Translations under genes and position numbers: made by a program
The notes under the pieces: generated by a model
Databases searched by the model: none
Told to the model about the DNA's origin: nothing
Seen by the model: only the letters and a program-made list of their open reading frames with translations
Shown here: piece by piece, positions 31,514 through 40,343 of the stretch
How the letters are laid out: the number at the start of each line of letters is the position of its first letter
Numbering within the stretch: position 1 is the stretch's first letter
NCBI RefSeq assembly: GCF_000421265.1
Contig: NZ_ATWN01000001.1
Span: 124,001 to 188,000 of the forward strand
Reading direction: 5' to 3'
DNA from: Thalassospira lucentensis MCCC 1A00383 = DSM 14000
GTDB taxonomy: Bacteria; Pseudomonadota; Alphaproteobacteria; Rhodospirillales; Thalassospiraceae
DNA length: 64,000 nt

Positions 31514-32818
31514 ATGAGCAACAAAAACGCATCTTCATCGGTGGTGACATCTTTACCCGGCACCAATTCGGCGCAGGCAGCGCGCGGATTTGTTCGGTCT
31601 GTCAACGACTGGGTGATGGAATGCGCGCTCGAAGATACCGACATTTCAGAGATCCTCAATGGCATGGTGCATCGACTGGTTGCGGCCGGTATTCCCATCG
31701 ACCGTGTGATGGTGGCGTTCAAAACCCTGCACCCCCTATACGAAGGGGTTTCTTATGTCTGGTCAAAGGACAGCGGTTCGGTTGAACGTTCGACCCATAT
31801 GGGGGTGCGCGATGATGATCCCGATTGGGCCGACAGTCCGCTTAAATGGATGTCGGATTCAGATGTCAGTTTCATGCGCCGCCATTTGATCGGGCCGGGC
31901 GCGGTTCTTGATTTCCCGATCCTTGAAAGTTTCCGCCGCAATCGCGGCACAGATTACTATGCGCTGATGACGCCCTTTGTCACTGACCGTGACAGCACGC
32001 TGGGCAGTAACCGCATTTTCATGACCTATATGACGCGCCGCCCCAGTGGTTTTTCCGACGAAGACCTTGCAACACTGTCGGGCATTCAGCGCCGTTTTGC
32101 CGTGTCGTGCAAAATGCGTATCAACCACGAAGAAACCAAAACCATCCTTGAAACCTATTTGGGATCGGATGCCGGTGGACGCGTGCGCAATGGTCAGATC
32201 AAACTGGGCGACAGCACCAAAACCCGTGCGGTGATCTGGTTCTCGGACATGCGTAACTCATCATCGGTTGCAACCCATGTTGGGGACGATGCGTTCCTGG
32301 GTGAAATGAATGATTTCTTTTCGGCAACCGCCGGGGCGGTGTTGAAACACGGCGGACAGGTTCTGCGCTATATCGGCGATGCGACACTGGCGATTTTCCC
32401 GATTGACGAAAACGAGAACAATGTCGAAACCGCTTGCGTTTCCGCCCTGTATGCCGCTGCCGAGGCACAGCTTAACATCGATCAGCTCAACGCCACGCGC
32501 GAAGAATCCGGCAAACCGCCGTTTGATTACGGGCTGGGGATGCATGTCGGGGATGTGATTTATGGCAATGTCGGGGTTCCCGAACGGGTCGATTTCACCG
32601 TGGTGGGGCAGGCCGCAAACGAAGCCGCCCGCATCGAACAATTGACCAAGCAACTGGGTAAACGCGTTCTGGTCAGCCAGACCGTCGCCAGTTTCATTTC
32701 CTGCCCGACCGAGGAAATGGGGGCCTATGAGCTGCAAGGGACCGGGGTTAGCGTCAAGCTGTTTGCCCCTGACTTCTCCGAGGCCTGCCATCGTCTTGAA
32801 CTGATGCGTGCTGGGTAA
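31514..32818 (+). CDS. Class III adenylate/guanylate cyclase-domain protein
   Basis: 434 aa and no obvious membrane segment. Residues about 35-225 form a soluble sensory region, perhaps GAF-like, that I cannot name. Residues about 235-425 are a class III cyclase domain: RAVIWFSDMRNSSSVA (metal-binding Asp), GQVLRYIGDATLAIFP (second metal Asp, usually GDG), and VIYGNVGVPERVDFTVVGQAANEAARIE. It should make cAMP or cGMP from the nucleotide triphosphate. GDA replaces the more common GDG. It stands alone, with GGAG before the ATG and a palindrome upstream. The next genes (R-body locus) run towards it. Confidence 0.9.
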   Translation: MSNKNASSSVVTSLPGTNSAQAARGFVRSVNDWVMECALEDTDISEILNGMVHRLVAAGIPIDRVMVAFKTLHPLYEGVSYVWSKDSGSVERSTHMGVRDDDPDWADSPLKWMSDSDVSFMRRHLIGPGAVLDFPILESFRRNRGTDYYALMTPFVTDRDSTLGSNRIFMTYMTRRPSGFSDEDLATLSGIQRRFAVSCKMRINHEETKTILETYLGSDAGGRVRNGQIKLGDSTKTRAVIWFSDMRNSSSVATHVGDDAFLGEMNDFFSATAGAVLKHGGQVLRYIGDATLAIFPIDENENNVETACVSALYAAAEAQLNIDQLNATREESGKPPFDYGLGMHVGDVIYGNVGVPERVDFTVVGQAANEAARIEQLTKQLGKRVLVSQTVASFISCPTEEMGAYELQGTGVSVKLFAPDFSEACHRLELMRAG

Positions 32819-32896: not shown

Positions 32897-33466
32897 TCAC
32901 GCCATACTGTCAAAATCCTTCACAACACTACTTGCCGACGTCCCAACGCTTGTAAATGTTTTCTGCGCGTCGGTGACGGCCTTGGATGCGGCTTCGATGA
33001 TGTCGCTGTAAGGCTGGACTTCTTTGGTTGCCAGCATCTTTTGCATGGCGACACCGGTTGTTGCCGATGCCATCGACATGATGCTGCGCATGTAATCGGT
33101 TGAATCCTGCACCGCGTACGCCGCTGCCTGCGCCACCTTTTGATAAGCAACACCATTGGCACCCGGAATGGCTCCGTTTAGAACCGCATGGTTGGTTGTG
33201 CCAACCGCCTGAACGATTTGCGGGTTCAATGCCGTGCTGAGCGGGGGCGTGCCAGATGCGGCAGGCGGGCTGTCCGAGGGGGGCGTGTCCTTGTCTGACG
33301 CATCGCCGCCTGATGCTGTGGTGGCATCCGGGGTACCGGTGCCGCCGCCACTTGCATCCTTGGTATCTTTGGCATCCTTGTTGTCTGCGGCATCAGACGT
33401 GGTCGGATCATCCGCGCCCTTGGGTTCAGTGCTGGCTGGCTTTGGGGGGGTGTCATCGTCTGCCAT
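32897..33466 (-). CDS. RebB-like R-body protein with low-complexity N-terminus (reb8)
   Basis: 189 aa from the ATG at 33466 (GAGG upstream); codons before it are not supported. Residues 1-80 are Asp/Thr/Ser/Pro/Ala-rich (DDDTPPKPASTEPKGADD and similar) with no fold expected. Residues about 85-150 are RebB-like: LNPQIVQAVGTTNHAVLNGAIPGANG, then QKVAQAAAYAVQDSTDYMRSIMS, in the same order as the shorter reb genes (xVQAVxxTN, then small-residue helices). It is the most divergent member. It is the last gene of the R-body locus; an Asp/Ser-rich extension on a structural subunit could act as a spacer or solubility tail. Confidence 0.65.
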   Translation of the reverse strand: MADDDTPPKPASTEPKGADDPTTSDAADNKDAKDTKDASGGGTGTPDATTASGGDASDKDTPPSDSPPAASGTPPLSTALNPQIVQAVGTTNHAVLNGAIPGANGVAYQKVAQAAAYAVQDSTDYMRSIMSMASATTGVAMQKMLATKEVQPYSDIIEAASKAVTDAQKTFTSVGTSASSVVKDFDSMA

Positions 33467-33558
33467 GAAGGACCTCATTTGCTTTGACGGGTGTTTTGCG
33501 TGTTTGTTCAATGCTGTTGGGGCACATCATCATGGCCCATCGAATGACCATTCAGAAA

Positions 33559-33822
33559 TCACTGGTTTTTGTTGCCTCCGCCGCCCATGCCGCCGCCAGA
33601 TGTATCAAGGATCATCTTACACGCGCTCGAAGTTACGGCATTGCCGATCTGCTGCAGGCCACCTTGGGTCTGCATGGCATTTTGCATCGAAAGACTGATG
33701 GAATGCGCCATGGTTTGATACACAAGCCCCATCGCCTGGGCAGGCGCTTCGCCAAGAACCTTGACGTTGGTTTGTGTCACGGCATCCGTGATTTGTGAAT
33801 TTACGGGGGTGTTGTCTGCCAT
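33559..33822 (-). CDS. RebB-family R-body protein (reb7)
   Basis: 87 aa from the ATG at 33822 (TGAGGG upstream; a GTG two codons earlier is less likely). A standard RebB core: ITDAVTQTNVKVLGEAPAQAMGLVYQTMAHS, followed by ISLSMQNAMQTQGGLQQIG. The tail is Gly-rich (GGGMGGGGNK). RebB is the Pfam killing-trait family, the building block of R-bodies, insoluble protein ribbons first described in Caedibacter. Confidence 0.88.
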   Translation of the reverse strand: MADNTPVNSQITDAVTQTNVKVLGEAPAQAMGLVYQTMAHSISLSMQNAMQTQGGLQQIGNAVTSSACKMILDTSGGGMGGGGNKNQ

Positions 33823-33885
33823 CTGCACGCCCTCAGTTTAAGTGACCATGGTCCGATGATGGATCGGACGGGTCATGTCATGTGC

Positions 33886-34209
33886 CTAGCGGCGGGTTGC
33901 TGCCAAAATGATCAGGAGTGTCAAAAGCGTATTGCTGTTGTCGGAATTTGACACTTTGTTCGTTGCCATTGCACCGGCCATGGTATTGACCGAGTAAAGC
34001 TGCATGACACCCTGGTTGGTGGCGGCCTGCGAGCAGATCGATGATTGCTGCTGGGCCTGCACCGCGTTCTGGAACAGTATGGATGTCGAGTGCGCCGCAC
34101 TTTGATAGATCGAGCCCATCGCATTGGCGGGTGCGGATCCAAGAACGCTTACCGAAGTTTGCGTAACTGCATCGGTAATCTGACCGTTCACCGGGGTTGG
34201 AATAGCCAT
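33886..34209 (-). CDS. RebB-family R-body protein (reb6)
   Basis: 107 aa. N-terminal PTPVNGQITDAVTQTSVSVLG and APANAMGSIYQSAAHSTSILFQNAVQAQQQ define the RebB core, with ATNQGVMQLYSVNTMAGAMATNK shared with reb1 and reb2. The C-terminus is Asn/Ser-rich, then hydrophobic (LLTLLIILAATRR). GGAGG before the ATG. Closest relatives in the window are reb1 and reb2. Confidence 0.9.
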   Translation of the reverse strand: MAIPTPVNGQITDAVTQTSVSVLGSAPANAMGSIYQSAAHSTSILFQNAVQAQQQSSICSQAATNQGVMQLYSVNTMAGAMATNKVSNSDNSNTLLTLLIILAATRR

Positions 34210-34330
34210 TGTATCCTCCGAATAAGCGGTCTGTCTGACCGCACACCTTTTGACGCATGATGAGAAGAATTGTGATCAAATTTCGCCAGATCGTTTGCCG
34301 ATTATTTTCTGGGCGTTTGCCGATTGTCGG

Positions 34331-34555
34331 CTATCCCGCCTGTGCCGTGATCAAGGCGACCAGTTTCGATGTCGATGTATTGACGACTTGCTGCATGTTG
34401 CCCTGAACCAATGTGGCATTTTCCATGGCAAGTCCGGTGGCATGGGAATGCGATTGCAAGGCCATCGACACCGCCTGTGCCGGACTTTCGCCCAGAACTT
34501 TCACGTTGGTCTGGGTGACCGCATCTGTGACTTGTGGATTGACGATATCGTTCAT
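34331..34555 (-). CDS. RebB-family R-body protein, short (reb5)
   Basis: 74 aa, the shortest member. VNPQVTDAVTQTNVKVLGESPAQAVSMALQSHSHATGLAMENATLVQGNMQQV covers the whole RebB core, then a short TSKLVALITAQAG tail. GGAG lies before the ATG. It lies 16 nt after the end of the alternative-frame tail of reb4 (34572), which would fit an operon if that tail is translated. Confidence 0.88.
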   Translation of the reverse strand: MNDIVNPQVTDAVTQTNVKVLGESPAQAVSMALQSHSHATGLAMENATLVQGNMQQVVNTSTSKLVALITAQAG

Positions 34556-34571
34556 GCTTCAAGCTCCGTCG

Positions 34572-34783
34572 TCAGGATACGCCGGGGGCGTTGTTCTCGT
34601 TGGTCAGGTCATCGGCGGTTTCAGTGCCTTTGCCCACAAAGCGTTCATCAAGTTGTACCCACCATGGTGGGTCGTCGTCGGGCGGGGCTTCGGGGGCAGT
34701 GTCGCCGTCATTTACGTCGGATTGTGGTTCGGATCCTTCTGCGCTGGATTGGTAGGCTGACGCACATTCAAAGGAGCCGCCGT
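34572..34783 (-). other. Coding-like alternative-frame tail of reb4
   Basis: In the frame shifted by one base after the T7 tract at 34784-34790, the sequence is open to 34572 and encodes an acidic, Pro-rich tail (GDTAPEAPPDDDPPWWVQLDERF, then ETADDLTNENNAPGVS). The codons (GAA, GCC, GAC, ACC, GGC) look like those of real genes here, whereas the in-frame tail of reb4 stops at 34712 and leaves a 156-nt gap. No own start with a Shine-Dalgarno is seen. This is either a frameshifted 3' part of reb4, a slippage product, or a sequencing error. Confidence 0.55.
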
Positions 34784-35029
34784 AAAAAAATTTGGTTTGT
34801 TGTCCTGAACCGACAGGGTCGATTTCGCGCATTCCATGGTGGTGGCAAGGCTTGCCACGGCCAGTTGCTGCTGCTCGTTGACCATATTGGCAAACAGAAT
34901 GCCCTGCGCCTGTGCCTGGGATAGATAGGACTGCATGGTCCCCATTGCCGGGCCATTGCCAATGACGGTGGTGTTTGTCTGGGTCACACTGTCGGTGATT
35001 TGCTCGTCAACTTCATGGGAATTGCTCAT
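34712..35029 (-). CDS. RebB-family R-body protein, apparently frameshifted near its 3' end (reb4)
   Basis: 105 aa as it stands. RebB core: VDEQITDSVTQTNTTVIGNGPAMGTMQSYLSQAQAQGILFANMVNEQQQ. After about residue 80 the sequence reaches a run of seven T (minus strand) at 34784-34790; from there the present frame ends 26 codons later, whereas the +1 alternative continues with good coding character to 34572 and would give a protein of about 150 aa ending 16 nt before reb5. The conserved core is intact either way. AAGGA precedes the ATG, 11 nt after reb3. Confidence 0.75.
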   Translation of the reverse strand: MSNSHEVDEQITDSVTQTNTTVIGNGPAMGTMQSYLSQAQAQGILFANMVNEQQQLAVASLATTMECAKSTLSVQDNKPNFFTAAPLNVRQPTNPAQKDPNHNPT

Positions 35030-35040
35030 CGCTTTGATCC

Positions 35041-35373
35041 TTACTGGTTACGGCGATTCATGATCTGTTCGATGCCCTTGGTCATAGTGGTCATGCCAAC
35101 CATCGCATTTTGCCTTTGGGCGGAAACCATATTGGCCATCAAGACACTTTGGGATTGCGACTGGCCCAGCATGGATTGAAGGGCGGCATAACTTGGCCCG
35201 ACACCAATGGTCGCGACATTGGTCATCGCAACGCTGTCGGTGACCTGACTGGACACCTGACAGGGGGCATGTTCCGCGACGTACCAGGACTGTTGTGGCT
35301 GCTGTGGCTGGGTGGATTGGCTTTGATCTGCTTGCGTGCCGTCTTGTGGGGGTGTTCCCGATGGTGCCGGCAT
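35041..35373 (-). CDS. RebB-like R-body protein with Gln-rich N-terminus (reb3)
   Basis: 110 aa. Residues 1-35 are Gln/Pro/Ser-rich (QADQSQSTQPQQPQQSWY), then a diverged core: QVSSQVTDSVAMTNVATIGVGPSYAALQSMLGQSQSQSVLMANMVSAQRQ. The order (xVTDSVxxTNxxxxGxxP, then small-residue helix, then NxxxxQRQ) is RebB-like, closest to reb4. AAGGAG before the ATG. It begins a close series with reb4 and reb5, and a terminator upstream (35441-35471) separates it from reb2. Confidence 0.75.
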   Translation of the reverse strand: MPAPSGTPPQDGTQADQSQSTQPQQPQQSWYVAEHAPCQVSSQVTDSVAMTNVATIGVGPSYAALQSMLGQSQSQSVLMANMVSAQRQNAMVGMTTMTKGIEQIMNRRNQ

Positions 35374-35440
35374 GTCCGTCTCCTTGGCTGGCGAAATGGG
35401 GACTTATCGGTATGACGTGCGCCAGCGACTTTTGTGATGG

Positions 35441-35471
35441 AAAAAGCCCGGCAAGCGACTGCATGCCGGGC
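35441..35471 (-). terminator. Terminator after reb2
   Basis: On the minus strand GCCCGGCA pairs with TGCCGGGC and is followed by five T residues. It makes reb2 a separate transcript from reb3. Confidence 0.75.
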
Positions 35472-35498
35472 CGGTTCGGCGGCGAAACCAATCTGGTG

Positions 35499-35834
35499 TT
35501 ACGACACGGCAGTGCCGGTCGTTGCTTTAAGAGCCGACAACAAAGAAAGCATGTTGTCGGGCACATCGCTGTTTGCGAGTTTGGAGGTGGCAACGGCACC
35601 GGCCATGGTATCGACCGAATAGACCTGAATGACGCCCTGGTTGGTTGCGGCCTGTGAAGAGATGCCGACCTGCTGCTGGGTGCTGACGGCGTTCTCATAG
35701 AGAATGCCGTGCGAATGCGCCAGCGACTGGTACAGCGAGCCCATGGCCATGGCAGGAGCATCACCCAAAACCTTTACGTTGGCTTGGGTTACTGCATCCG
35801 TGATCATGCCATTGACCGGAGTGTTATCAGCCAT
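35499..35834 (-). CDS. RebB-family R-body protein (reb2)
   Basis: 111 aa. TPVNGMITDAVTQANVKVLGDAPAMAMGSLYQSLAHSHGILYENAVSTQQQVGISSQAATNQGVIQVYSVDTMAGAVATSKLANSDVPDNMLSLL covers almost the whole protein and is nearly identical in pattern to reb1, indicating recent duplication. GGAG lies before the ATG. It is its own transcript, with a terminator 28 nt past the stop. Confidence 0.92.
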   Translation of the reverse strand: MADNTPVNGMITDAVTQANVKVLGDAPAMAMGSLYQSLAHSHGILYENAVSTQQQVGISSQAATNQGVIQVYSVDTMAGAVATSKLANSDVPDNMLSLLSALKATTGTAVS

Positions 35835-35984
35835 TGTGTATCTCCTGGTTGCCTAAAGAAGTGCCGGAATCCGGCCCTTTTCCGCGTGGTTTGCGGGATC
35901 AGTCAGATGACGGAGGGCCAGATCGGTTGTGACGGAACTTGTGCAAAAACTTGCGGACCGCAAATTGGGGGCGCGATCCACGTA

Positions 35985-36022
35985 AAATCGGGCGGCCGCT
36001 GATGGAAACGACCGCCCGATTT
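35985..36022 (-). terminator. Terminator after reb1
   Basis: AAATCGGGCGG pairs with CCGCCCGATTT around a loop of about 16 nt; a short T-run follows on the minus strand. Confidence 0.6.
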
Positions 36023-36091
36023 GATGGTGACCCGTGTGTCAGAAGATCCGGAGCGGGACCAGCCTGCCATATGTTTGACAGGTAAACGGGA

Positions 36092-36415
36092 TCAGCCTTT
36101 GGTGGCTTGAAGGGCTGTCAGAAGTGACAGCATATTGTCGGGCACGTCGCTTTTGGCAATTTTCGAGGTTGCCACAGAGTCTGCCATCGTATCGACCGAA
36201 TAGATCTGGATGACGCCCTGATTGGTCGCGGCCTGCGAGGTGATGCCGATCTGCTGCTGTGCGCTGACGGCGTTTTCATAGAGGATGCCGGTGGAATGTG
36301 CGAGGGACTGAAAAATCGAGCCCATTGCCATTGCCGGGGCGTCGCCCAAAACTTTCACATTTGTCTGGGTGACTGCATCAGTGATCTGACCATTTACCGG
36401 GGTCGGAATCGCCAT
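36092..36415 (-). CDS. RebB-family R-body protein (reb1)
   Basis: 107 aa, the copy nearest the sigma factor. PTPVNGQITDAVTQTNVKVLGDAPAMAMGSIFQSLAHSTGILYENAVSAQQQIGITSQAATNQGVIQIYSVDTM is the most canonical RebB core in the set, with IAKSDVPDNMLSLL shared with reb2. AAGGAG before the ATG. It lies about 135 nt after the sigma-factor gene and ends before its own terminator. Confidence 0.92.
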   Translation of the reverse strand: MAIPTPVNGQITDAVTQTNVKVLGDAPAMAMGSIFQSLAHSTGILYENAVSAQQQIGITSQAATNQGVIQIYSVDTMADSVATSKIAKSDVPDNMLSLLTALQATKG

Positions 36416-36550
36416 TGTAAAGTCTCCTTCGTGTAGGTGTGCTGTGGACTGCTTGCGGTTGTGATCCTGACGGGGTTTCGCCGTCCCGTTTTCAATCTAA
36501 AGACGCTGGGTGTTTGGGGTTGTGACGCGTCTTTTTCATTTATTTGCCAA

Positions 36551-37750
36551 CTATTGAATGTCGGCATCCTTCAGGTGGTCACGTGCCAGTTGGACACGTT
36601 TGCGCACGGCGCAATTGCTTAAGCCCAGGGCGACCGCGATGTCGTCATAACTGCGGTCCTGAACGCAGCGCATCAAAAGCGGCTTGCGCAGTTTTTCAGG
36701 AAGGGCACAGAGGACAGTTTCGAGCTGGTCGAGCTTTTCGTTGGTTAAAAACGATTCTTCCGGGCTTGGAATAACCGGCGGGCTGATCGGGGACACCGGA
36801 ACATCCGCACCGCCGTGGGTTTCTTCCTTGTATTCCGCCTTGCGCCGGTTTTGCCGATGCAAATCAATACAGGCGTTATGGACAATCCGCGAAAGCCAGG
36901 CGCGGTGATTGCGGATTTCATCCATCGAGGCTTCGAACTTGGTCGATGCCTTGACCATCGCCTCGGACAGCGCATCCTGCGCATCATCCATATTCCCCGA
37001 CATCAGTTTCAGGCACTGCTTAAGCAGGACGTCTTGCTGATCAATCCACAGCGGCCAGAAATTCGGCGCGGCCGGACCCAGTTCCGGATCAATCGCCGGA
37101 ACGGTTTCCGGGGCCGGGGCCGGGGTTGGATCGGTATGATGTGGCTGGGGGGAATGTGGTCCGGGCATGCCCGGTGCAGGGGTCGGCATGGCGGGATAGT
37201 CAAAGCCGCCGGGCAACAACCCCCGAAGCGCATCCAGCGGGCTTATCTGTGATCCACCCTGATAACCCGGAAGGGCGCTTGCGATGATGTCTTCCGGACT
37301 TGGCCCGGAGCGCGATGGCTCCAGCCCCGGGAAACCGGCAAGCGGATTAAAATCTGCGGGATAGCCGGGCGGCGGGCCCTGGCGGTTGGGCGCACCATTG
37401 AGCGCCGGTGACGCGGCCGATGACGCGGCGGGTGACGCAGTTTGTGCCTGTGCGACAGATGCGCTGAAATCGGGTGTCGCATCGCGCTGCCCAAAAGCTT
37501 GGGCCGGATCGCTTTGTCGCGCGGCGTCGACCGCACTGCCATCCTGCGGAGGATCTGCCGGGGTGAGTTGAGAAAGATATCCCTCGGCAACCCGCACACG
37601 TTGTTCGGGTTTTAACCGTGACCAGATTGACGTGACATTGTCGCCGTCGCCCAGAGCCTGATTTAAGGTATCTTCAAGGCTGCGGGCAAACCGCAATTCT
37701 GCCTCTGTGAAGTTCACCTCGTCCTGTTGAGTATTCTTTTCGTTCTGCAC
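36551..37750 (-). CDS. Sigma-70 family (ECF-like) factor with long proline-rich insert
   Basis: 399 aa, about twice a normal ECF factor, from a GTG with GGAGG upstream. Residues 1-65 are acidic with a helical SIWSRLKPEQRVRVAEGYLSQL. Residues about 65-230 are Pro/Ala/Gln/Ser-rich with no fold expected. Residues about 232-305 are sigma region 2 (ALSEAMVKASTKFEASMDEIRNHRAWLSRIVHNACIDLHRQNRR) and about 335-395 region 4 (ALPEKLRKPLLMRCVQDRSYDDIAVALGLSNCAVRKRVQLARDHL). Being between the reb genes and two upstream accessory genes, it probably switches on the R-body genes. Two nested inverted repeats lie in its own promoter region. Confidence 0.88.
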   Translation of the reverse strand: MQNEKNTQQDEVNFTEAELRFARSLEDTLNQALGDGDNVTSIWSRLKPEQRVRVAEGYLSQLTPADPPQDGSAVDAARQSDPAQAFGQRDATPDFSASVAQAQTASPAASSAASPALNGAPNRQGPPPGYPADFNPLAGFPGLEPSRSGPSPEDIIASALPGYQGGSQISPLDALRGLLPGGFDYPAMPTPAPGMPGPHSPQPHHTDPTPAPAPETVPAIDPELGPAAPNFWPLWIDQQDVLLKQCLKLMSGNMDDAQDALSEAMVKASTKFEASMDEIRNHRAWLSRIVHNACIDLHRQNRRKAEYKEETHGGADVPVSPISPPVIPSPEESFLTNEKLDQLETVLCALPEKLRKPLLMRCVQDRSYDDIAVALGLSNCAVRKRVQLARDHLKDADIQ

Positions 37751-38073
37751 TATGGATCCCTCCAGTTGACAGATTGCAACCTTAGGCTGATTAAGTTTTG
37801 CAGTAACTAGTATGACGTACTATTCGAATGATTGTGAATAAAAGTATTTACTGCAATCAATGGTTGTGAATCTGTGCTCGTCAAAGTGTCCCCGGCCCGC
37901 GTGGGACGGGGGTGGATCAATGCTGGAATTCGTGGGACGCAATCTTGGATCTGGTCTGGTGTGGCGGCCAAAATCCTAAAGTCATGGTAGCGGGCGACAG
38001 CGGTTTTCCGTATCTCAGTGAGCTGCACGATCACCAATAACCACGGTCTTGGCCCTTGGGCCGATCCGTTCTG
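37751..38073. promoter_or_regulatory. Promoter region of the sigma factor with nested dyads
   Basis: No gene that I can support. TTGCAGTAA (37798-37806) and TTACTGCAA (37848-37856) are perfect inverted 9-bp arms whose centres are 50 bp apart, near five helical turns. Between them lies TAGTA-TGACG-TACTA (37809-37823), a perfect 5-bp dyad. This part is AT-rich, unlike the flanks. The remainder up to 38073 is unexplained. Confidence 0.55.
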
Positions 38074-38664
38074 TTAGGGCGGATTATCCTCTGCTGAGGA
38101 CAGCGTACTATCTTGAGAATCGGTTTTCTTTGATGTGTCTGCCTTATTGGCAGCGGTGCGTTTTGCCCCTTTTGGCGTGCTCTTGGCCTGATCTGCTTCC
38201 GTGTCGTCTGGTGTTTCTGTCGGCAGGGATTGCAAAATTGCGGCTTCAACCCGGGCGGCAAGGATCTGCATGCGCTGGTCGACTTCTTTGTTGATGATAT
38301 TGCGGATCTCGTTGGCAATATCGAACATCACCTGATGGGCGCCGCCACCAGCCGGGCTGCTGCCCATGTAGGGCGCGCCTTGTGGCTGGGGTTTTGCTTG
38401 CTGGTTGCCTGCCGGGGCGGCTTGCGTACCAGTTTGCGTCCCCTGTTGCGTCCCCAATGGCGGCTGCGGCGCGGTGGCACCGGCCTTCACATCCTGTGCA
38501 TGTGAACTGATGGTATAACGCTGATCAAGAACCTGCGTGCGTGCGCGTTCAGCAGCCTGCGACATCGCCTGCTGGGTGGCCATATATTCCTGATTGAACG
38601 CCTTTCTGACCGCATCCTTGCGGCTGCTGGCGGTATCAATGCCTGACTGTCCCGGACCCGACAT
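38074..38664 (-). CDS. Low-complexity protein of the R-body locus, unrecognised
   Basis: 196 aa. I do not recognise it. The start (ATG at 38664) overlaps the previous stop (ATGA), so it is coupled to the 559-aa gene. Residues 12-55 are helical and charged (SSRKDAVRKAFNQEYMATQQAMSQAAERARTQVLDQRY); residues 60-100 are Gln/Pro/Gly-rich; residues about 105-145 form a second helical part (HQVMFDIANEIRNIINKEVDQRMQILAARVEAAI); the tail is Lys/Asp/Thr-rich (KKTDSQDSTLSSAEDNPP). No RebB core is seen. The coiled-coil-like pieces and disordered linkers would suit an assembly, packaging or anchoring role for the insoluble ribbons, but that is speculation. Confidence 0.75.
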   Translation of the reverse strand: MSGPGQSGIDTASSRKDAVRKAFNQEYMATQQAMSQAAERARTQVLDQRYTISSHAQDVKAGATAPQPPLGTQQGTQTGTQAAPAGNQQAKPQPQGAPYMGSSPAGGGAHQVMFDIANEIRNIINKEVDQRMQILAARVEAAILQSLPTETPDDTEADQAKSTPKGAKRTAANKADTSKKTDSQDSTLSSAEDNPP

Positions 38665-40343
38665 CAGGAACCTCCCTTGTTGGTCGTGCTTGAACTGGCT
38701 GATTTCCCCGTTCCGCCCTGCGTGGTTTTGGCACCACCCCCGCCGGATTTCGGACCGGACGGCTGGTCTTTGCCATCATCATTGCTCTTGCTATCGCCAT
38801 TGTCCGAGGTGTCCTGCGTTGGCGTTGGGGGGCTTTGATCGTCGCCAGAAGACGGGGTTTTGGCGGCTGACGGGGCGGGCTTGGCATTGGATGCGACAGC
38901 CGGGGCCACAACCGGGGCCGCCTTGGACGTGTCTGACGTGCTGTCGCCGTCCAGGCAAAACCCATATCCCGCCAATTCGTCTGGGGTCGGGGCGGTGGCA
39001 AGCCCGGTCAGCGTGGTTTCAAGACGCCCGTTGGCATTGGCGATCATGCTGGCCGCACGGCACGCACTGTTATCGCTTTGCCCGCTGCAATTTAAAATCG
39101 CGGTTGGCGTGCATGATTTGCTTGATGTCAGCAACTGGGCGGTGACATTAAAACTGACTTCCTGATCATACTGCACAAGGATCACGAGGCCCGCCCCCTT
39201 GTCGCCTTCGCTGGGTGGGGTGATTTGCATCCAGAACGGAATGGCATGGGTCGGCGATATCGGAATGGTCCCGCGCAAGGTCGGGCTGGGCAAGGTGCCG
39301 ACATATTCCAACTGGGCCGGAACCGCAGGACGATCGGCAAAGATCAGGCGGATCAGGGCAAGGTTCGGTGTCGTGCCGCTGGGAACATCGCCAATCGTTT
39401 GTTCAAGATGAAGCGCATAAGCCCCCCCGCCATAGGTCGCCATTTCCGAATAGGGTTCCTGCGCCTGATCGGTCACTGTTGTGTCAAACAACAAGGCGCG
39501 CAAATGCGACGGCGATGTCTTGGGCACGGCAATTTCCAGTTCGGATTGAACACCGGCATTCGCCCCAACATTCAGGCACCAGCCCCCAAGAAGCGCGGGC
39601 GTGTCGAGTGCGACCAGTTTGGCACTGATGGCGGTTTGCGCGCTGGTGCGCCCGGCCGCCAACGGCAGGCATTGCGCAAGATCAATTGTCCAGTCGGGAA
39701 CATCGGCATCCTGACTGTCCTTGCCTTGCAGCTGCGGCATGGCGGTGCGGAACATGTCATCGCCGATCACCGCCCCGGCAAGATCGGTTTCACTGCCGTC
39801 CGGGCGGGTGGTGATCAGGCGCCACTGTGCGGCCGCACTGTCATAAGAAGGGGTGCTTGAGGCCTCGGAAGACTGGGTCATATCAGGTCCCTTTTGCTGA
39901 TCTGCGCGGGTTTGGGGGGGTGACTGCATGGATTTGGCCAGAACGCTGGCCGGGTCGGGGATATGCCCGTCAAGCCCGGCCTGATTTGCGCGGGAATCGG
40001 GCGCATTTGGATCGCGATCAAACAGGAATTTCTGAATGATCGAAAACGCGGTTTCCTGCGGTTCCGCGTCAAATCCATATATGGGCTGGTGAACCTGCGT
40101 ACCGCTGTCTTGCGGCGTGCTGCCACTACTGGCCGGGCTGGTGGCCGGGTCGGGAAAAAGCGAACTGCTGTGCAAAAGCCCCGGTGCCAGCTCCTCAAGC
40201 CCGTATTCACGGCACAATGCCGCCATCACATCAAGCGCATCCTGATGTTCGGGCGGTAAGCTCGCATAGGGCGTAGCTTTATCGGTGCCTTGGTCGGTGG
40301 TTTTGTCGGTTGGTTGAGCCGTGGGCTTTTGACTGTCTGTCAT
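38664..40343 (-). CDS. Large unrecognised protein of the R-body locus
   Basis: 559 aa and the first gene of the minus-strand cluster. Residues 1-25 are Thr/Asp/Lys-rich; 35-130 contain a helical segment (HQDALDVMAALCREYGLEELAPGLL); about 165-440 looks like a folded, beta-rich domain with aromatic and Cys residues (QWRLITTRPDG, IPFWMQITPPSEG, LVILVQYDQEVSFNVTAQLL, CTPTAILNCSGQ); about 470-559 is Pro/Ser/Gly/Asp/Lys-rich disorder. No signal peptide or membrane segment is seen. I cannot match it to a family. It overlaps the 38074 gene by 4 nt and is followed on the same strand by the sigma factor and the reb genes. Confidence 0.75.
   Translation of the reverse strand: MTDSQKPTAQPTDKTTDQGTDKATPYASLPPEHQDALDVMAALCREYGLEELAPGLLHSSSLFPDPATSPASSGSTPQDSGTQVHQPIYGFDAEPQETAFSIIQKFLFDRDPNAPDSRANQAGLDGHIPDPASVLAKSMQSPPQTRADQQKGPDMTQSSEASSTPSYDSAAAQWRLITTRPDGSETDLAGAVIGDDMFRTAMPQLQGKDSQDADVPDWTIDLAQCLPLAAGRTSAQTAISAKLVALDTPALLGGWCLNVGANAGVQSELEIAVPKTSPSHLRALLFDTTVTDQAQEPYSEMATYGGGAYALHLEQTIGDVPSGTTPNLALIRLIFADRPAVPAQLEYVGTLPSPTLRGTIPISPTHAIPFWMQITPPSEGDKGAGLVILVQYDQEVSFNVTAQLLTSSKSCTPTAILNCSGQSDNSACRAASMIANANGRLETTLTGLATAPTPDELAGYGFCLDGDSTSDTSKAAPVVAPAVASNAKPAPSAAKTPSSGDDQSPPTPTQDTSDNGDSKSNDDGKDQPSGPKSGGGGAKTTQGGTGKSASSSTTNKGGS

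Follow-up and report, generated by a model that had tools for sequence, protein, structure and literature searches.

The reb locus of Thalassospira lucentensis occupies positions 32897-40343 on the minus strand of the window, the 64,000-nucleotide stretch of contig NZ_ATWN01000001.1 (positions 124,001 to 188,000) analyzed here. R-bodies are coiled, springy protein ribbons that unroll and are tied to effects on eukaryotic hosts. Judged by its gene content the locus encodes R-bodies: it comprises seven RebB-domain genes, a divergent Reb relative (T189), an extracytoplasmic function (ECF) sigma factor and two proteins of 559 and 196 amino acids (U559 and U196). Our overall reading, to which we assign a probability of roughly 0.7, is that of a sigma factor-driven Thalassospira R-body locus in which -1 frameshifting in one subunit gene, R105, yields a minority subunit carrying an additional tail. 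Two features had been overlooked in the first-pass annotation of the window: the -1 frame of this 105-amino-acid gene encodes a conserved tail (35029..34572), and a promoter motif is repeated through the locus.

R105 contains a conserved slippery site and probably undergoes programmed -1 frameshifting

The zero frame of R105 stops 23 codons past codon 82 and the -1 frame remains open to 34572, so that a ribosome slipping at a run of seven T (T7) would produce a predicted protein of 152 amino acids sharing its first 82 codons with the 105-amino-acid product. Of 22 distinct Thalassospira sequences, 17 have T7 at an identical position and in the same phase, one of these 17 carrying eight T, and the codons CCA AAT TTT TTT are kept in most sequences while adjacent codons vary. 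This recurrence in 17 distinct sequences rules out a sequencing error or pseudogene as the source of T7. Every sequence that carries T7 has an open -1 frame behind it. The encoded tails are acidic and proline-rich, and an end motif that includes tryptophan and [LM]DxRFxG is common to most of the T7 group. In 10 of 21 distinct sequences the stop codon of the tail and the start of the following reb gene overlap by exactly 4 nt. Four of the five sequences that lack T7 end the zero frame with GGC CCA AAG TCC TAA and have an in-phase C_CCA_AAG heptamer, with the zero-frame stop two codons after it. The -1 tail of this clade resembles that of a T7-carrying sequence, L051 (ELTDEEL), and C_CCA_AAG is reported to be highly shift-prone in Escherichia coli (review PMC5009743).

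Beyond the zero-frame stop, the ratio of nonsynonymous to synonymous changes (pN/pS) is 0.48 in the -1 frame compared with 1.36 and 1.03 in the other two frames, based on eleven close pairs that are not all independent. This pattern indicates that selection on the tail is purifying in its own frame and that the -1 frame downstream codes for protein. Programmed frameshifting is the best reading of the arrangement when this frame-specific selection is taken together with the alternative slippery site: R105 carries a conserved slippery site at which a -1 shift probably adds a long tail. The broader proposal, fairly likely in our judgment, is that conserved programmed -1 frameshifting at two slippery sites in different clades makes a fixed minority of tailed subunits that would control assembly or bind partner proteins. 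AGGA located 12 nt 5' of T7, seen on inspecting the aligned sites, could act as a Shine-Dalgarno-like stimulator of the shift.

Two other routes to the tail were considered. The tail might belong to a small gene of its own that overlaps R105 and is translated, through coupling or reinitiation, from an ATG or GTG within the Met-Glu-Cys codons of R105, and T7 would then simply represent Asn-Phe-Phe codons. In 21 of 22 sequences the -1 frame does contain such a start codon (ATG or GTG) about 43 nt upstream of T7, and overlapping starts are used by genes of this locus. This internal start, however, arises automatically from the zero-frame codons GA[AG] TGC and lacks a Shine-Dalgarno sequence (-2.4 kcal/mol compared with -4.9 to -12.7 kcal/mol for real genes), and a separate gene would leave both the C_CCA_AAG of the other clade and the conserved T-ending codons unexplained. 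In one sequence, L052, no -1 start codon is found close upstream of the slip. We regard a separate gene as unlikely. Transcriptional slippage on T7, giving mixed mRNAs and requiring no ribosomal frameshift, would fit the homopolymer of seven to eight T at the site, but a run of seven is short for this process and the C_CCA_AAG site of the other clade is not a long homopolymer, making this explanation very unlikely.

Several observations weigh against programmed ribosomal frameshifting. U_UUU_UUU is a much weaker slippery sequence than A_AAA_AAG in E. coli (PMC5009743). A conserved stem-loop or other conserved RNA structure 3' of the slip site was looked for and not found, with no consistent z-score across the sequences. 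A 3' stimulatory structure is not a defining requirement in every bacterial -1 frameshift. Openness of the -1 frame is weak evidence when taken alone: the per-sequence p for its being open by chance is 0.02-0.27, with codon usage drawn from the window only, and the sequences share ancestry. Both Phe codons of the site show no synonymous change, but this conservation is only suggestive because another TTT of R105 is likewise invariant. The R105 of L052 (L052/L078, a Thalassospira metagenome-assembled genome) has no canonical slippery site, yet its -1 frame is long. Finally, among 370 reb open reading frames (ORFs), nearly all from other genera, the arrangement of slip site and long -1 frame was found only in Thalassospira R105; two sporadic matches in R74 genes were judged to be due to chance.

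In the proposed mechanism, the sigma factor would activate its own gene along with the reb units, and the Reb subunits would polymerize into a coiled ribbon. Most ribosomes on R105 would stop after codon 105, and a fraction would slip back one base at A_AAT_TTT_TTT to make the 152-amino-acid subunit with its acidic, proline-rich tail. By analogy with the G/GT tail-assembly chaperones of phages, a fixed minority of tailed subunits may serve assembly, length control or the anchoring of partners such as U559, U196 or T189. The likeness to G/GT is that of a -1 shift close to the end of a gene for a small assembly protein, which places a tail on a minority of molecules. We claim no homology: R-body subunits and phage chaperones are different proteins, and the tailed R105 product is a prediction. 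The R105 slippery site and tail seem to be new, and our literature search on R-body frameshifting found no relevant paper among those searched. If true, R105 would provide the first known example of recoding in an R-body system, and the frameshifted assembly proteins of phage tails would have a cellular counterpart. A conserved frameshift in R105, if real, could set the ratio of two subunit forms and would make subunit stoichiometry directly accessible to simple mutation, which touches on why many reb genes share a locus and what fixes the ratios of subunits.

The locus encodes seven RebB proteins and one divergent relative

All ORFs of the locus were found at the coordinates given in Table 1. 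RebB membership was assessed with Pfam PF11747 at its curated cut-off of 24 bits, the hidden Markov model search that the first-pass annotation had proposed as a check. Seven ORFs score between 34.5 and 98.5 bits, and these are all the matches in the 4.7-Mb genome (whole-genome search); 14 control genomes contain none. T189 has no Pfam match. Its C-terminal domain of about 115 amino acids, highly conserved across the genus in our alignment, nevertheless aligns in register with the Reb core by profile-profile comparison (hhalign, probability 89.5%, E 2e-6). The eight RebB-family genes originally proposed are therefore seven clear members and one divergent relative, the latter aligning by profile only. 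The sizes given for them (74-189 amino acids) were right, as was the placement of a sigma factor and two further proteins on the same strand. Reb domains, synteny and the shared promoter motif bear out the assignment to an R-body-type locus. The accompanying term 'contractile' polymer is the wrong word, R-bodies being structures that unroll.

Table 1. Position and properties of the features of the reb locus (window coordinates).
Feature	Coordinates	Strand	Properties
U559 partner, 559 amino acids	38664..40343	-	disordered acidic/Pro-rich ends; no Pfam/NCBIfam match
U196 partner, 196 amino acids	38074..38664	-	conserved N- and C-terminal blocks
Promoter TCACAA-N14-CGTC before sigma gene	37814..37837	-	upstream alignment and pattern search
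ECF-type sigma factor, 399 amino acids, GTG start	36551..37750	-	Sigma70_r2 and r4_2
Promoter TCACAA-N14-CGTC before R107a	36502..36525	-	upstream alignment and pattern search
R107a reb gene, primary Reb (QITD, KVLGD, NAV, QQQ)	36092..36415	-	PF11747 2.3e-28, 98.5 bits
Promoter TCACAA-N14-CGTC before R111	35909..35932	-	upstream alignment and pattern search
R111 reb gene, primary Reb	35499..35834	-	PF11747 7.1e-28, 96.9 bits
Promoter TCACAA-N14-CGTC before R110	35414..35437	-	pattern search
R110 reb gene, Gln-rich N-terminal extension	35041..35373	-	PF11747 2.2e-8, 34.5 bits
R105 reb gene, zero-frame product 105 amino acids	34712..35029	-	PF11747 5.8e-13, 49.2 bits
AGGA, possible Shine-Dalgarno-like stimulator	34803..34806	-	12 nt 5' of T7
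Predicted slippery site A_AAT_TTT_TTT	34784..34793	-	codons 79-82 CCA AAT TTT TTT; overlapping heptamers A_AAT_TTT and T_TTT_TTT
-1 frame tail, 70 codons and stop	34572..34784	-	acidic/Pro-rich; Trp and LDxRFxG end motif
R74 reb gene	34331..34555	-	PF11747 3.7e-18, 65.8 bits
Promoter TCACAA-N14-CGTC before R107b	34252..34275	-	upstream alignment and pattern search
R107b reb gene	33886..34209	-	PF11747 1.7e-25, 89.3 bits
R89 reb gene, Gly-rich C-terminus, likely start ATG 33822	33559..33828	-	PF11747 9.3e-25, 87.0 bits
T189, 189 amino acids from ATG	32897..33466	-	Asp/Pro-rich N-terminus and divergent Reb-like C-terminal domain

Primary Reb proteins are characterized by the signature motifs QITD, KxxxD/E, NAV and QQQ (PMC13430693). 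NAV, QQQ and KVLGD are present in both R107a and R111, with MITD replacing QITD in R111. The signature is partial in the remaining reb proteins, and R105 and R110 lack KxxxD/E. A longer T189 ORF begins at TTG 33511. T189 is homologous to an Azospirillum protein at the HP1.2 position (blastp 1e-15; profile 4.6e-18), and its domain weakly matches a 222-amino-acid Roseibium frame adjoining a sigma gene. A phage origin was considered and rejected: U559, U196 and T189 have no match in PHROGs, and two tested Reb proteins match a single PHROG of unknown function.

Multi-copy reb loci with sigma factors were already described in 2013 (Raymann et al., PMC3583457). In synteny group 1 of that study HP1.1-HP1.4 surround the reb genes, and group 2 has the sigma factor HP2.3 and the Crp-type HP2.4. 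The Thalassospira locus resembles these loci in its clustered reb genes, in T189 as a protein homologous to that at the HP1.2 position and in a sigma factor as in group 2 (HP2.3). It differs in carrying U559 and U196 instead and in the frameshift tail, which is not described there. No Crp-type HP2.4 gene is found among the locus or neighboring ORFs examined. The reb operon of Azorhizobium caulinodans is likewise a multi-gene alphaproteobacterial R-body operon with non-Reb partners, of which AZC_3784 is essential (PMC5527310). Its control is by PraR and RebR and not by a sigma factor.

A shared promoter motif probably links the sigma factor to its own gene and the reb units

Aligned upstream regions of the sigma gene, R107a, R111 and R107b show the ECF-type promoter motif TCACAA-N14-CGTC, and a pattern search added R110. 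The window contains five exact matches, all inside the locus and all on its strand. Upstream of U559 the variant TCACAC-N15-CGTC is found here, and the exact motif precedes U559 in the L049-L051 group of Thalassospira genomes. The reb cassettes of other genera carry similar promoter sites. Presence of the motif before both the sigma gene and the reb units points to autoregulation combined with control of the reb units, so that the sigma factor likely controls its own gene and the reb genes. A promoter shared by five transcription units including that of the sigma factor itself seems to be new, and would provide a way to switch on the whole locus in a culturable marine bacterium. That the sigma factor serves the genes of its own locus is well supported by this arrangement.

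The sigma factor consists of sigma-70 regions 2 and 4 only (residues 243 to 393-395 of 399), preceded by a proline-rich N-terminal extension of about 235 amino acids. Its putative promoter is of a type very similar to that of ECF41 sigma factors, reported as TGTCACA-n16-CGTC (PMC3426412): TCACA and CGTC are separated by 15 nt, and in both cases the motif precedes the sigma gene itself. In contrast to ECF41 proteins, which have a fused C-terminal regulatory domain, no such domain was found in the Thalassospira sigma factor, whose sequence ends at region 4. In Pseudomonas aeruginosa PA14, reb genes are also under a cluster-encoded sigma factor (rebP1P2, rapA, fecI2, rcgA), and FecI2 is needed for reb expression (Wang et al., PMC8322103). 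The PA14 cluster has three reb genes and needs the regulator RcgA, whereas the Thalassospira locus has 7-8 reb-type genes and no RcgA-type regulator gene, and its sigma factor bears a long extension at the N-terminus.

The sigma gene is present in 29 of 29 Thalassospira genomes, including five that lack reb. Its persistence in these five species argues against an exclusive link with R-bodies, and reb may not be its only task. The sigma factor might instead serve the genus as a general ECF regulator, with the adjacent reb genes among its targets, and not be dedicated to R-bodies. This alternative, which we hold to be possible though doubtful, agrees with the intact sigma gene and conserved promoter at the same chromosomal site in the five reb-less species and with the additional motif copies elsewhere in each genome, somewhat above a control pattern (12 exact matches in the whole genome studied here versus 6 for the reversed pattern). 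On the other hand, the motif is concentrated in the reb locus, which holds 5 of these 12 matches, and four reb-less species keep a motif like the U559 promoter, suggesting a former cassette. The sigma factor probably has other duties as well.

U559 and U196 are strictly associated with reb genes

RebB genes (7-8 per genome), U196 and U559 occupy the same 24 of 29 Thalassospira genomes and the other five lack all three; the two partner proteins are thus found in 24/24 reb-carrying and 0/5 reb-less genomes. A plain search gave U559 in 23 genomes, the 24th copy being diverged (E 2.5e-18). The start of U196 overlaps the stop of U559, so the genes are coupled. Strict co-occurrence with reb argues for a role of both proteins in assembly or in the material delivered by the ribbon. 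No match was found for either protein in Pfam, NCBIfam or PHROGs, and a search through 385 genomes of the class revealed no U559 beyond the genus. Residues ~173-448 of U559 are predicted to be all-beta at low confidence (AlphaFold2 (AF2) predicted local distance difference test, pLDDT, of 48), and U559 has no fold or sequence match in the PDB (Foldseek, none at E<=0.001). U559 was also considered as a counterpart of HP1.1. This assignment was rejected, there being no sequence support, an AF2 model that is too weak and no Foldseek match at the same threshold. A sequence relative of HP1.1 was not found, and the 361-amino-acid Azospirillum protein at the HP1.1 position is matched by neither the U559 nor the U196 profile. 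The only possible relative of U196 outside the genus, a weak one, is a small Brevundimonas protein next to a sigma gene (E 7e-4). The pair represents concrete candidates for the partner proteins sought since 2013, and its restriction to one genus together with its co-occurrence with reb agrees with the first-pass annotation, in which the two large partners were singled out as unusual.

Two small proteins weakly similar to U196 are encoded just upstream of sigma genes in Brevundimonas (L096, 12396-12710, E 7e-4; L098, 12000-12329, E 2e-3). They might belong to a broader family of accessory proteins encoded beside the sigma genes of reb cassettes.

The reb cassette recurs in other genera and was probably lost in five Thalassospira species

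Thalassospira has been listed as a reb-rich genus (Dorr et al., PMC13430693). The order R107a(xN)-R110/R105-R74-R107b-R89-T189 together with a related sigma factor recurs, with variations, in Nisaea, Magnetovibrio, Kordiimonas, Tistlia, Brevundimonas, Vineibacter and others, its most constant part being R74, R107b, R89 and T189. The combination of eight reb genes and a sigma factor is therefore not unique, and the number and variety of subunits, initially taken to be unusual, are matched in several other genera of Alphaproteobacteria, whose cassettes hold 7-9 RebB genes in this order.

In the five reb-less Thalassospira species, an intact sigma gene lies between the same flanking glutamine amidotransferase and cyclase genes, with no reb genes, U559 or U196. 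The sigma promoter is conserved in all five (L034-L038), and four of them have, about 280-380 bp upstream, a further motif that resembles the U559 promoter, with no evident gene behind it. The kept sigma promoter and the leftover U559-type motif indicate, on comparative grounds, that reb was probably lost in these species. Retention of the sigma factor and its promoter after the probable loss of reb seems to be new.

The interval between the amidotransferase and cyclase genes contains a gene for a membrane protein of 729-732 amino acids in four of the five reb-less species. The adenylate/guanylate cyclase-domain gene (window 31514-32818, plus strand) converges on the locus in all Thalassospira loci examined, both those that carry reb and those that lack it. 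Outside the Alphaproteobacteria, reb loci are found in the gammaproteobacterium Methylobacter tundripaludum (L092), which carries an R107a relative with 80% identity, and in a Saprospirales metagenome-assembled genome of the Bacteroidota (L128), an apparent case of wide transfer.

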